Source of the DNA: Chryseobacterium sp. KLBC 52
GTDB lineage: Bacteria; Bacteroidota; Bacteroidia; Flavobacteriales; Weeksellaceae
Direction of reading: 5' to 3'
NCBI RefSeq assembly: GCF_003347605.1
Contig: NZ_QDFZ01000003.1
Location: 1 to 64,000, forward strand
DNA: 64,000 bases
Every line of letters begins with the position of its first letter. Position 1 is the stretch's first letter. A program made the translations under genes and the position numbers. The notes beneath the pieces were generated by a model, which had not been told where the DNA came from, made no database searches, and was given only the letters and a program-made list of their open reading frames with translations. Below are positions 25,427-46,478 of the stretch, in pieces.

Positions 25427-25458
25427 AGAGCATCCTTTTTAGGGTGCTTTCTTTTTTT
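25427..25458 (+). terminator. Terminator after ROK gene
   Basis: AGCATCCT (25429-25436) pairs with AGGGTGCT (25441-25448), including one G-U pair. A T run follows (25450-25457). It lies 24 bases past the ROK stop. Confidence 0.7.
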
Positions 25459-25996
25459 CCACAGACTGCATAGATCTTCGCAGATGATTATGTCGTATTT
25501 TCTTTGTGTTTATTTGTGTTTAAAATTAAATTAGCATAATTAAGATGCTTCGACAAAGATCAGCATGACAGCGCTAATACCAAAATGTTTTAAACTACCT
25601 CAGACAACAACCATTCCATTTGTATTGAATCTATTTTGACCACAGATCGCACAGATTTTCACAGATGATTATCCTATATTTTCTTTGTGTTATTTGTGAA
25701 AGCATTGGTGTTATTCGTGTTAAAATGAAAATGCTTCGACTAAGCTCAGCATGACAACGTTAATACTAACTGCTTTAAAATACTTTGTGGTGATTAAATG
25801 CAAGAAATTGTCTTCCATTTTTCTTGTGTTATTTGTGAAAGCATTAGTGTTATTTGTGTTTAAAATAATTTGTCACATCTATCATTGTAATTTAAGTTTA
25901 CTACGTAAAAGCCTGTTCAAATGAAAAAGTTTTTCATATTTTTGATTGGTCTTTTCCGGATCGGGAAAGGATTATAAAACAATATAATTACCAATA
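25459..25996. repeat. Repeat-rich spacer between ROK gene and msrA
   Basis: No gene is seen. The spacer contains near-copies of several words. CCACAGAN-type blocks lie near 25459 and 25640. TTTTCTTTGTGTTTATTTGTG-like blocks lie near 25500, 25680 and 25815. ATGCTTCGAC...GATCAGCATGACA blocks lie near 25545 and 25732. AGCATTAGTGTTATTTGTG lies near 25840. The ATGCTTCGAC element is also found near 272. A TATTTTTG box near 25935 may be the msrA promoter. The long, partly duplicated layout suggests repeated insertion or slippage. Confidence 0.6.
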
Positions 25997-43463: not shown

Positions 43464-44822
43464 ATGAACATTTTACAAACATATCAGACTTTTTACTTCG
43501 TCGGAATCGGAGGTATCGGAATGAGCGCATTGGCACGCTATTTCAATGCATCCGGAAAAAAAGTATTGGGATACGACAAAACCAATACAAAGCTTACTCA
43601 GAATCTGATGAATGAAGGCATTGATATTGTTTTTGAAGACCTTATTGATGAAAGGATTACTTCCCTTCAGAAAGAAGATACTTTGGTAATCTATACTCCG
43701 GCTATCAAAACGTTGGGAATACTGGATTATTTCAACCAAAATCAGTTTGAAGTTTTAAAACGTGCTAAAGTTTTAGGATTAATTACTGAAAATACAGACT
43801 GTATCGCTATTGCAGGAACCCATGGAAAGACCACCACGTCTACCCTTGTGGCTCATTTGTGTAAAGAGGTGGATCTTCCTTTCTCATGCTTTCTGGGAGG
43901 AATTTCTGAAAACTTTAAATCCAACTTCCTGTATAACGGTTCTACCTATTCTGTTGTAGAAGCAGATGAATATGACAGAAGCTTCCTGAACCTGTCTCCG
44001 GACTGGGCAGTAGTAACTTCTACCGATGCAGATCACTTGGACATTTATGGAGACGTCAACCATATTGAAGAAGGATTCAGACAGTTTGCAGCTTTGGTTC
44101 CTCAAGACAAACAACTTTTTGTAAGAAAAGGGTTGGAAATTGGCAGAGGCCATCAAACCTATGCAGTGAATGAGCCGGCAGATTATTATTCAGACAACCT
44201 GCGTATGGAACATGATAAAATTTATTTTGACTTCCATACCCCATCTGAAACAATAAAAGATTTTGTCTGGGAAATTCCGGGAATTCATAATGTGGAAAAC
44301 GCCACTGCAGCACTGGCTATTCTGCATAATTTAGGCGCAGATTTTGATACGCTGAAAAAGGCCATTGCCAATTTTAAGGGAATTAAAAGAAGATATACCA
44401 AACATATTTATCAGAACGGTAAAATTTACATTGATGATTATGCTCACCACCCTACAGAAATCAATGCTGTAGTGAGCTCAATCAGAACATTTTACCCTGA
44501 TAAAAAGCTATTGGTAGCTTTCCAGCCTCACCTTTTCAGCAGAACAAGAGATTTCGCAGATGGGTTTGCTGAAAGTTTGAGCAAAGCGGATGAGCTTATT
44601 CTTCTCGATATTTACCCTGCGAGAGAGCTTCAGGAAAATTTTGAAGGAATTACTTCAAGCTGGCTGTTGGACAAAGTAACATTAGATAAAAAAGAAGTAT
44701 CGGCTTTATCCGATGCTTTTGAAAAAATAAAAGAAAAAGATTTTGATATCCTCCTTACTGTAGGTGCAGGAAATATAGATACCCTGTATGACCCTATCTG
44801 TGAGTGGATTGAGAAAATTTGA
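43464..44822 (+). CDS. murC: UDP-MurNAc-L-alanine ligase MurC
   Basis: This 452-residue Mur ligase adds L-Ala to UDP-MurNAc, the first amino acid of the stem. Motifs are the N-terminal GIGGIGMSALARYFNASGKKV, the ATP loop AGTHGKTTTSTLVAHL, SVVEADEYDRSFLNLSP, a central STDADHLDIYGD, and YIDDYAHHPTEINAVVSSI with AFQPHLFSRTRDF. Length and order are normal. Its stop (TGA at 44820-44822) lies four bases before an inverted repeat copy of the accessory insertion. Confidence 0.96.
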   Translation: MNILQTYQTFYFVGIGGIGMSALARYFNASGKKVLGYDKTNTKLTQNLMNEGIDIVFEDLIDERITSLQKEDTLVIYTPAIKTLGILDYFNQNQFEVLKRAKVLGLITENTDCIAIAGTHGKTTTSTLVAHLCKEVDLPFSCFLGGISENFKSNFLYNGSTYSVVEADEYDRSFLNLSPDWAVVTSTDADHLDIYGDVNHIEEGFRQFAALVPQDKQLFVRKGLEIGRGHQTYAVNEPADYYSDNLRMEHDKIYFDFHTPSETIKDFVWEIPGIHNVENATAALAILHNLGADFDTLKKAIANFKGIKRRYTKHIYQNGKIYIDDYAHHPTEINAVVSSIRTFYPDKKLLVAFQPHLFSRTRDFADGFAESLSKADELILLDIYPARELQENFEGITSSWLLDKVTLDKKEVSALSDAFEKIKEKDFDILLTVGAGNIDTLYDPICEWIEKI

Positions 44823-44825
44823 ATA

Positions 44826-44883
44826 TAAACGCAATGCTCGCGAAGAAAAATATAAAATAGTTCGCAAAGGCGTTTCACTCAGC
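44826..44883 (-). repeat. Insertion repeat, copy 1 (inverted)
   Basis: Read on the minus strand this is GCTGAGTGAAACGCCTTTGC..., with GCGAGCATTGCGTTTA at its far end. It matches the direct copies at 44960-45025 and 45433-45503 in both end segments. It begins four bases after the murC stop. Confidence 0.75.
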
Positions 44884-44959
44884 AAATGAGAAAAATAACT
44901 GATTTATGTTAAAAAAATAATTTACTTATTAAAAATAAATTATTCAAATGATAGCCGTA

Positions 44960-45025
44960 GCTGAGTGAAACGCCCTCGCGAACGGAAAGAAATAAAAAGG
45001 TTGCTTTGCGATCATAGCGTTAAAA
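44960..45025 (+). repeat. Insertion repeat, copy 2 (direct)
   Basis: It begins GCTGAGTGAAACGCCCTCGC and ends near GCGATCATAGCGTTAAAAC, with an A-rich middle. It lies just ahead of the GxxExxY pseudogene start. With copy 1 it forms a long inverted repeat with a loop of about 76 bases. Confidence 0.75.
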
Positions 45026-45042
45026 CAAAAAACACAAAATGT

Positions 45043-45419
45043 ATGATAGAAAATGAAATTTCAGAGATTGTTTTCGATTCTGGAATGAAAATACATCGTA
45101 CCCTTGGAATTGGACTTTATGAGAATGTATATGAAGAATGCTTAGTTTATGAACTGAAAAATAGAGGATTGAATGTAGAACGTCAAAAAAATATTGACAT
45201 AAACTATGAGGAATTAAAATTTTTAAGGCGTTCAGAGTAGATTTATTAATTGAAAACAAAGTAATAATTGAAATAAAAGCAGTTCAGGAAATTAATGATT
45301 ATCATTTTTTCCAGCTTTTAAATTATTTAAGAATAACAAATATAAAACTTGGAATGATTTTGAATTTCCATTCAATCTTATTCAAAAATGGAGTAAAACG
45401 AGTTGTAAATAAATTATAA
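45043..45419 (+). pseudogene. GxxExxY family gene, frameshifted
   Basis: The start is ATG at 45043 (MIENEISEIVFDSGMKIHRTLG). The family motif GxxExxY is GLYENVY, followed by EECLVYELKNRGL. The frame is open to the TAG at 45238-45240, but the homologous continuation is in another frame from about 45226: KAFRVDLLIENKVIIEIKAVQEINDYHFFQLLNYLR, ending VKRVVNKL at the TAA at 45417-45419. The RVD...EIK pattern is the PD-(D/E)xK nuclease-like core. One missing base in the AAAATTTTTAA stretch at 45217-45226 would explain the shift. The restored length of about 126 residues is normal. This could be a real mutation or a sequencing error. The repeats at both sides point to a mobile unit. Confidence 0.8.
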
Positions 45420-45432
45420 AATTTAAACACTT

Positions 45433-45503
45433 GCTAAGTGAAACGCCCTTGCGAACTAAATAATAAAAACAAAATAAACTCTTTGTGAGCATTGCGTTAA
45501 AAT
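45433..45503 (+). repeat. Insertion repeat, copy 3 (direct)
   Basis: It begins GCTAAGTGAAACGCCCTTGC and ends with GTGAGCATTGCGTTAAAA, with an AT-rich middle. It ends seven bases before the ftsQ ATG at 45510. Confidence 0.75.
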
Positions 45504-45509
45504 AAAAAT

Positions 45510-46478
45510 ATGAAAAATAAATACAGAATATTAAAAATTGTTGTCACTGTAATTATCCTGGGATTGTTACTGAGCTTCTCATTGAGGAGATTCAGCCGTG
45601 AGCAGATTACAGACAATAAGATTTCTGTAAAAATGAGCGAGAAAACTCCGGTATACTTTGTTGATGAAAAAGACATCAGGGAAATTGTAAAAAAAGAAAA
45701 TCCTTCAGGAAAAGTGGGAGATCTCAATATTCCTTCTTTGGAAAAAAAGATCAATTCACTACCGGCCGTAGACAGCGCCAATGTTTATCTGAACCTGAAC
45801 GGAAAACTCAATCTGGATATCAAGCAGAGAGTTCCTGTGTTCAGATTAAATAAAGACGGAAAAGACTTTTATGTGGATGAAAAAGGAGTTGAATTCCCGA
45901 TTTCAAGAACCTATTCACACCCATGTATGCTGGTAACCGGAAACGTGCATCCGGAAGAATATGAAAAGCTGGCAGAACTGGTAGAAAAGATAGATAAAGA
46001 TGATTTCAGTAAAAAATACTTTATCGGAATCTCAAAAAGTAAAGACAGCTATAATCTTCTGACAAGCGAAGGAAATTATAAAGTGGAAATTGGAGACCTT
46101 GATAATATTGATTTTAAAGTAAAAGGATTTAAAACGTTTGTGGAAAAATATCTGGTGTATCAGGATCCTCAGAAATACAGCATGGTTTCTGTGAAATATC
46201 AGAATCAGATTGTCACTACTTTAAACCCTTATTTTAAAGAGAATGACAGTATTTTAAAGGCAGGAAAGATGGAATTGGCAAAAGTTCCTTCCCCAACAGC
46301 CGCTAAAAAGACGGAAGCTAAACCCAACATAGCAGAGGTAAAAAAAAGCAGCTCTACTTCGGTAAAACCGAAAGAGAGTACCAAACCGAAAGGAGCAACA
46401 AAAGAAGCCAAAAAAGCGGAGAAAAAGCCACCCGTCAAGGCGCAGTCCAAGCCTAAGGCAAAAGTAAAAATAGAATAA
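45510..46478 (+). CDS. ftsQ: Division protein FtsQ
   Basis: This 322-residue bitopic membrane protein has a short cytoplasmic head, a TM helix at about 8-27 (IVVTVIILGLLLSFSL), and a POTRA-like domain (about 40-115: VYFVDEKDIREIVKKENPSGK ... VDSANVYLNLNGKLNLDIKQRVPVF). A beta domain follows up to about 245. FtsQ connects early and late division proteins. The last 60-70 residues are an unusual Lys/Ala/Pro/Ser-rich tail (VKPKESTKPKGATKEAKKAEK, and more), low-complexity and strongly basic; by topology it should be periplasmic. FtsA follows after 79 bases. Confidence 0.9.
   Translation: MKNKYRILKIVVTVIILGLLLSFSLRRFSREQITDNKISVKMSEKTPVYFVDEKDIREIVKKENPSGKVGDLNIPSLEKKINSLPAVDSANVYLNLNGKLNLDIKQRVPVFRLNKDGKDFYVDEKGVEFPISRTYSHPCMLVTGNVHPEEYEKLAELVEKIDKDDFSKKYFIGISKSKDSYNLLTSEGNYKVEIGDLDNIDFKVKGFKTFVEKYLVYQDPQKYSMVSVKYQNQIVTTLNPYFKENDSILKAGKMELAKVPSPTAAKKTEAKPNIAEVKKSSSTSVKPKESTKPKGATKEAKKAEKKPPVKAQSKPKAKVKIE

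Follow-up and report, generated by a model that had tools for sequence, protein, structure and literature searches.

A frameshifted GxxExxY gene between murC and ftsQ of a Chryseobacterium genome points to a possible RAYT/REP-like pairing of GxxExxY nuclease-family genes with dispersed palindromes

The stretch of DNA analysed here (the window) comprises 64,000 nucleotides of a contig of Chryseobacterium sp. KLBC 52. The original prediction concerned the short interval between murC and ftsQ, where three copies of a repeat were said to surround a gene of the GxxExxY family. The features of this interval and of its two neighbours are the following:

43464..44822, plus strand: murC, the upstream neighbour (ORF of 452 aa, matched at 1e-100 in 37 of the 39 genomes searched)
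44826..44883, plus strand: first arm of the repeat (family A), inverted relative to the second and third arms
44884..44959, no strand: loop of the upstream palindrome, from first to second arm (76 nt)
44960..45025, minus strand: second family-A arm, forming a whole palindrome with the first; related copies occur elsewhere in the genome
45043..45240, plus strand: first part of the GxxExxY gene, with the GxxExxY motif; the frame stops at 45240
45210..45419, plus strand: second part of the GxxExxY gene, with the D..ExK motif, in a different open frame
45433..45503, minus strand: third family-A arm, which together with the first brackets the gene
45510..46478, plus strand: ftsQ, the downstream neighbour (ORF of 322 aa), on the same strand as the GxxExxY gene

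The three copies have the positions and orientations that had been proposed (one inverted at 44826-44883, two direct at 44960-45025 and 45433-45503), and the spacing to murC and ftsQ is also correct, the last base of murC being 44822 and the first of ftsQ 45510. Over their inner 24 bp the first and second copies are 92% complementary, while the second and third show 71-78% identity across two halves (blastn E about 1e-7 to 1e-8). The first two copies constitute the upstream palindrome and the third is a lone downstream arm, so that an inverted pair brackets the gene as well. The gene belongs to the GxxExxY family: its first 65 residues match TIGR04256 with an E-value of 2.1e-16, PF13366 is also matched, the two fragments score 57.7 and 73.1 bits against a curated cut-off of 35, and both the GxxExxY motif and the D..ExK residues are present in them. 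The predicted family and position of the gene stand, but the gene is not intact: the window copy is a frameshifted pseudogene. In this genome, then, the gene is broken yet the repeats persist; family-A orthologues of it are intact in four other genomes (G009, G010, G016 and G018).

Comparison of the murC-ftsQ spacer in 24 genomes of the genus, the states being sorted by eye, revealed that a family-A unit with a GxxExxY gene is found in five of them (broken in the source genome, G000, and intact in the four just named). Two others have a different GxxExxY gene with different arms, frameshifted in G014 and with a large internal deletion in G019; four have arms or arm remnants without the gene (G005, G006, G013 and G021), 12 another repeat-like spacer without the gene, and one (G011) another gene. 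Five further genes were assigned to the same context by their neighbours, four of them family A (G040, G048, G051 and G052) and the fifth, L121 in G047, of a second type. The spacer was also read on the plus strand in three genomes from other families, where it measures 1, 7 and 2 bp (L053, L055 and L058). Since the spacers vary in this way, the site is a repeat hot spot whose arrangement differs among relatives, and the alternative that every relative has the same arrangement by descent is false for the 24 genomes compared. At three sites of the genus, differing gene-and-arm pairs occur in differing species, the gene and the arms changing together.

Clean empty sites were sought in the 24 genomes at murC-ftsQ and, in three relatives, at the places of six family-A copies that lack a gene; at one of the gene-less sites the copy is absent from G002 and G020. 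No target-site duplication was read at murC-ftsQ or at the six gene-less sites, divergence limiting the reading. At another place (L013, with its orthologues L335, L336 and L339) there is a family-A palindrome in three genomes and a palindrome of another family in G002, as if in-place replacement had occurred: palindrome families seem to replace one another there. In G010 and G016 (L031, L033), the last codons of the GxxExxY gene and the next palindrome closely match the murC end and palindrome of G002, G007, G015 and G020 (L030, L032, L034, L035), which looks as if short homology had served a join or a deletion at murC-ftsQ. For the genus as a whole, the 91 intact genes fall into 13 contexts, each clade having mostly one context and mostly one copy per genome; the GxxExxY gene is here a mostly vertically inherited resident of fixed sites that is frequently lost. 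On plasmids or second replicons it was found in eight records, with spanning arms in three of the five read. On a replicon of Sphingomonas parapaucimobilis (L350) it sits in a tight space between fabD and fabG; an array of words is present upstream only and there are no spanning arms, possibly a lineage in which one arm was lost. A search of phage records with one query protein gave no match at E 1e-8.

The source genome (4.86 Mb) has four intact, two broken and one fragmentary GxxExxY genes. An 88-base query found family A at 20 listed places (40 of 58 candidates scored), none of which lies at another GxxExxY gene of the genome; the copies inspected are mostly palindromic, some of them in tandem arrays. 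Each of the other GxxExxY genes of the genome lies, as judged by eye, within or adjoining its own distinct palindrome family, and the window repeat was therefore rejected as a mark of all GxxExxY genes. The refuting condition that the repeat be unlinked to GxxExxY elsewhere is true of most of its copies within the genome, but the intact orthologues of relatives carry the window repeat, and other GxxExxY genes have palindrome families of their own. Elsewhere in the window, at 25440-25860, arm words from a pair of GxxExxY-type families (ACCACAGATCGCACAGATTTTCACAGATG and TTTGTGTTATTTGTG) are mixed in one array, where no GxxExxY gene is matched. Six loci compared with Rfam matched no family at gathering thresholds.

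How general is the bracketing of the gene by inverted arms? For each gene, the preceding 300 bp were compared with the following 300 bp and the best inverted match was scored; a score of at least 16 counts as a pass. The genus set consisted of 96 loci from 40 genomes, reduced to 91 by leaving out five without an intact ORF of at least 105 aa, and the named set of the best 80 of 574 relatives (593 stretches), reduced to 79 because one flank was too short (L204). One place belongs to both sets (L214 is L098), and Chryseobacterium contributes 11 of the 79 named loci; of the matches, 30 + 60 loci were read, plus 40 stretches, some overlapping these, for classifying clades. Spanning arms were found for 47/91 GxxExxY genes of the genus, versus 2/194 of the remaining genes at these loci, and for 53/79 named GxxExxY genes (44/68 if the Chryseobacterium loci are removed), versus 5/271 other genes. 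Outside the Bacteroidota the proportion is 15/22, these loci coming from Ignavibacteria, Chlorobiota, Verrucomicrobiota, Acidobacteriota, Chloroflexota, Omnitrophota, Cloacimonadota, Planctomycetota, Proteobacteria, Sumerlaeota, Deferrisomatales and one archaeon; the archaeal locus (L222) does not pass. At least one gene with a spanning pair exists in 11 of the 13 genus contexts. By the same test, 44/91 genus genes and 26/79 named ones have no spanning arms; in the largest clade of the genus the palindrome sits upstream, so that 0/16 genes pass. When partners were swapped, only 44/910 (genus) and 37/790 (named) combinations passed, as did 2/27 and 1/52 isolated genes flanked on each side by 80 bp or more of free sequence, and 5/28 genes of the S23 family (PF05635) used as a control (29 of 30 S23 loci were measured for flanks and 28 of 30 for spanning arms). 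RAYT-type transposases of the genus passed in 20/29 cases (29 of 30 loci measured), with REP-like arms. The enclosure of a nuclease-type gene by repeats of one family, as noticed first at murC-ftsQ, is a pairing that recurs widely, in the genus and in the named loci.

The arms often start at their outer end with (TTT)AACCAC, followed by two or three near-identical words, for instance ACCACAGAGACACAGAGAACACAGAG, ACCACATAGGCACATAGGACACATAG, ACCATTAAGGCATTAAG or ACCACAAAAGTCACAAAAG; in the window family the words are AACGC..TCGCAAAG. Word spacing, measured on 112 arms, is 8-9 bp (z 7.1 and 9.6), with a weaker signal at 17-18 bp, and a helical phasing of 10-11 bp was dropped in view of this spacing. 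The gene may be located between two arms, between two whole palindromes (L165, L191, L351) or beside a whole palindrome. Arms could be defined, at a score of at least 14, in 117 of 170 loci, and keeping one per context and subclade left 63 units from 53 contexts. Across unrelated loci, the similarity of the arms tracks the identity of the proteins (Spearman 0.37 over the 63 units, 0/2000 permutations); the value is 0.366 once GC content is removed (0/2000 permutations) and 0.05 with reversed arms. For the 866 cross-phylum pairs rho is 0.39 (0/2000 within-phylum permutations), the mean arm similarity being 0.60 where protein identity is 60% or more (29 pairs) and 0.31 where it is below 45% (387 pairs). 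Within the genus alone the coupling is weaker (15 units, rho 0.25, 59/2000 permutations). Each nuclease lineage tends to pair with its own repeat wording, and this suggests that the nuclease recognises the repeats and perhaps spreads or maintains them; arm recognition by the protein is strongly implied, as the economical reading of the coupling, and the earlier proposal that the nuclease might act on the repeats is plausible.

For the 40 genomes of the genus set, copies of three repeats (A, B and C) were tallied. Between genomes with and without the matching gene, in a candidate-limited search in which both arms of one palindrome may count separately and with the kinship of the genomes ignored, the median copy numbers are 31 versus 8 for A (p 0.0008), 31 versus 8 for B (p 0.0012) and 47 versus 32 for C (p 0.013). 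Among the genes tried, the lowest p in the column belongs for A and for B to the matched gene; for C the lowest value (0.009) is that of the matched gene plus a related clade, and an unmatched gene, ISEND4, gives 0.012. Off-diagonal links between genes and repeats do exist. Four genomes have no classified GxxExxY gene, and their counts of A/B/C are none in G043, 7/20/10 in G019, 15/2/1 in G023 and 41/17/15 in G054; G010 has a family-A gene, yet only three copies of A. That repeat abundance follows the presence of the gene is therefore best taken as suggestive.

The median dN/dS of the gene is 0.04-0.10 in six clades (10-51 pairs each), i.e. purifying selection, which means that intact copies are maintained. 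When its neighbours are co-directional, the gene lies in sense with them in 85/88 cases in the genus (12/13 at one per context) and in 46/49 named cases. Its neighbours are more often co-directional than other pairs in the genus (88/90 versus 238/324) but not in the named set (49/70 versus 246/359). An alignment of 38 diverse sequences has H22, G26, G28, L29, E31, D71, E81, K83, Y99, N112 and F113 (L149 numbering) as invariant residues; the catalytic D71, E81 and K83 are conserved in 38/38, and there is no invariant or near-invariant cysteine. The AlphaFold model (mean pLDDT 96.7) has as its best structural neighbour SSO0001 (4ic1; Z 9.3, rmsd 3.2, 99 residues aligned), which we take to be Cas4-like. 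Among lower neighbours are BglII and the Holliday resolvase Hjc, the latter with a Z of 6.4, and values below 8 are frequent by chance according to the note of the tool. Foldseek gave a match at E 0.018 and nothing at E 0.001 or below, and a profile search of PDB sequences found no match up to E 1. The predicted fold is thus a Cas4-like PD-(D/E)xK one, not HUH.

The explanation that we favour, with moderate confidence, is that GxxExxY genes and dispersed palindromes are paired in the manner of RAYT and REP, but with an unrelated nuclease as the enzyme, the window unit being a decayed member. The system would have two parts, a small Cas4-like PD-(D/E)xK nuclease and a family of imperfect palindromes, dispersed in the genome, that belongs to it. 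The gene sits in sense at a fixed place among host genes, between two inverted arms or beside a whole palindrome, and is probably read from the host transcript. Its product would read the words of the arms, most likely on a palindrome extruded as a hairpin or cruciform, and would cut there; repair or copying of the cut palindrome would then seed or maintain gene-less copies elsewhere, as proposed for RAYT on REPs. A more general claim, on which we are evenly divided, is that GxxExxY proteins constitute a second, HUH-independent class of repeat-propagating enzymes, which would read tandem 8-9 bp words and create and maintain intergenic palindromes of the ACCACAGAGACACAGAG type, with vocabularies owned by lineages.

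The main rival is that the arms are a control region, which the protein would bind or process in DNA or mRNA to regulate itself, the gene-less copies being remnants or other regulated sites. We regard it as unlikely, although it deserves some weight: the coupling of arms and protein predicts recognition only, and the placement of the gene in sense among host genes means that the arms lie in the likely transcript. But autoregulation alone leaves unexplained the tens of gene-less copies per genome, some of them in tandem arrays. Another possibility, which we find less probable still, is that the gene is a passenger: a RAYT or some other enzyme would spread the palindromes, and the gene would merely settle or survive within them. 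It is true that Y1 transposases are present in 35/40 genomes of the genus and that the GxxExxY gene is often broken or lost where the repeats stay. However, it is the GxxExxY sequence that the arm wording tracks across phyla, RAYT genes have other, REP-like arms, and passengers do not need a dN/dS as low as that measured. Of the RAYT flanks, 2/29 contained arms of GxxExxY type, a weak test since even GxxExxY flanks themselves match arms of other contexts in only 6/91 cases.

The original prediction was of a small mobile unit. In a self-mobile unit of the usual kind the gene and its arms would move together and the arms would act as terminal inverted repeats. The position of the gene between inverted arms, the gain, loss or replacement seen at murC-ftsQ and the few plasmid or second-replicon records, some with spanning arms, would fit with it. 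The genus clades, however, have mostly one context and one copy per genome, and no duplicated target was read at murC-ftsQ or at the six gene-less sites. With the gene mostly vertical, often lost and confined to about 13 contexts, it is the gene-less repeats that are the dispersed part, and self-mobility of gene and arms as one piece seems very unlikely. That AT-rich or roomy intergenic DNA simply collects repeats and that small genes are there by chance is the least credible explanation of all: the gene-less repeat-like spacers seen by eye in 12 of the 24 genomes would agree with it, but it is largely excluded by the isolated-gene, swapped-partner and S23 controls.

With a RAYT/REP-like pairing, a large family that has only a motif for its name would gain a function that can be tested, and a class of dispersed palindromes a candidate enzyme. 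If this is true, then two or more unrelated nucleases have given rise to the RAYT/REP lifestyle, in which a domesticated nuclease keeps a population of short palindromes in the genome, and the protein lineages whose repeat words are known offer a ready panel for work on DNA reading by a small nuclease. As intact pairs exist in ordinary soil and water bacteria, the role of dispersed palindromes could be approached by simple gene deletion.

Comparison with known systems has to start from the protein itself, which belongs to the GxxExxY/PDDEXK_3 family (TIGR04256, PF13366); the family models cover the protein only, and the pairing with repeats is the new point. The open-access PMC papers searched for the family names (e.g. 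PMC8934634) gave no link to repeats, and six repeat strings were found in no open-access PMC paper. With SSO0001 and other PD-(D/E)xK proteins GxxExxY shares the predicted core fold and the D..E-x-K residues. Cas4 has four cysteines for an iron-sulphur cluster and CRISPR neighbours; GxxExxY differs by its much smaller size (about 125-135 aa), by the lack of an invariant cysteine and by its repeat flanks, and the genes read next to it, murC and ftsQ among them, belong to the host. Insertion sequences are typically present in a genome as multiple copies of a gene with its ends and have target-site duplications; GxxExxY is mostly found once per clade and context, and divergence limits the reading of duplications. 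The four-helix S23 genes of 23S rRNA intervening sequences are likewise small, occur several per genome in the genus and have in some cases inverted, word-like flanks, but both the protein fold family and the words are others. Some S23 genes of the same genus (L229-L258) have inverted flanks of another vocabulary, e.g. TTAGAAGTTAGATATTAGAGGTTAG and TTGGCTTTTGGCT, perhaps a further gene-repeat pairing. CGTC-tagged palindromic repeats, which according to their description seem to be without a dedicated transposase (PMC3733652), are also short dispersed palindromes; their sequences differ, and the GxxExxY repeats have a candidate partner enzyme.

The closest likeness is to RAYT/REP systems (REPIN, REPtron), for which Nunvar et al. 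2010 (PMC2817692) give as hallmarks flanking inverted repeats, co-evolution and a gene presence related to repeat abundance, and for which vertical inheritance of a mostly single-copy gene is described in PMC8049555. The GxxExxY gene, too, lies between inverted copies of a dispersed palindrome, co-varies with its repeat (weakly inside the genus alone) and is, in the genus, mostly single-copy and vertical. In contrast, RAYT is an HUH/Y1 transposase (PF01797) and GxxExxY a predicted PD-(D/E)xK nuclease, and REPs are GC-rich hairpins headed by GTAG whereas GxxExxY arms consist of tandem 8-9 bp words; inspection of the arms by eye showed no GTAG head, and they start mostly with AACCAC-type words. 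RAYT-type transposases of the same genus (L299-L328) have classical REP-like flanks, TTGGCTTTAGCCAAAAC and AGAACCCGAAGGGTTC. With flanks and co-variation as in RAYT/REP, suggestive abundance, an unrelated enzyme and different repeats, the GxxExxY pairing would thus work like a RAYT/REP system without being a member of it.
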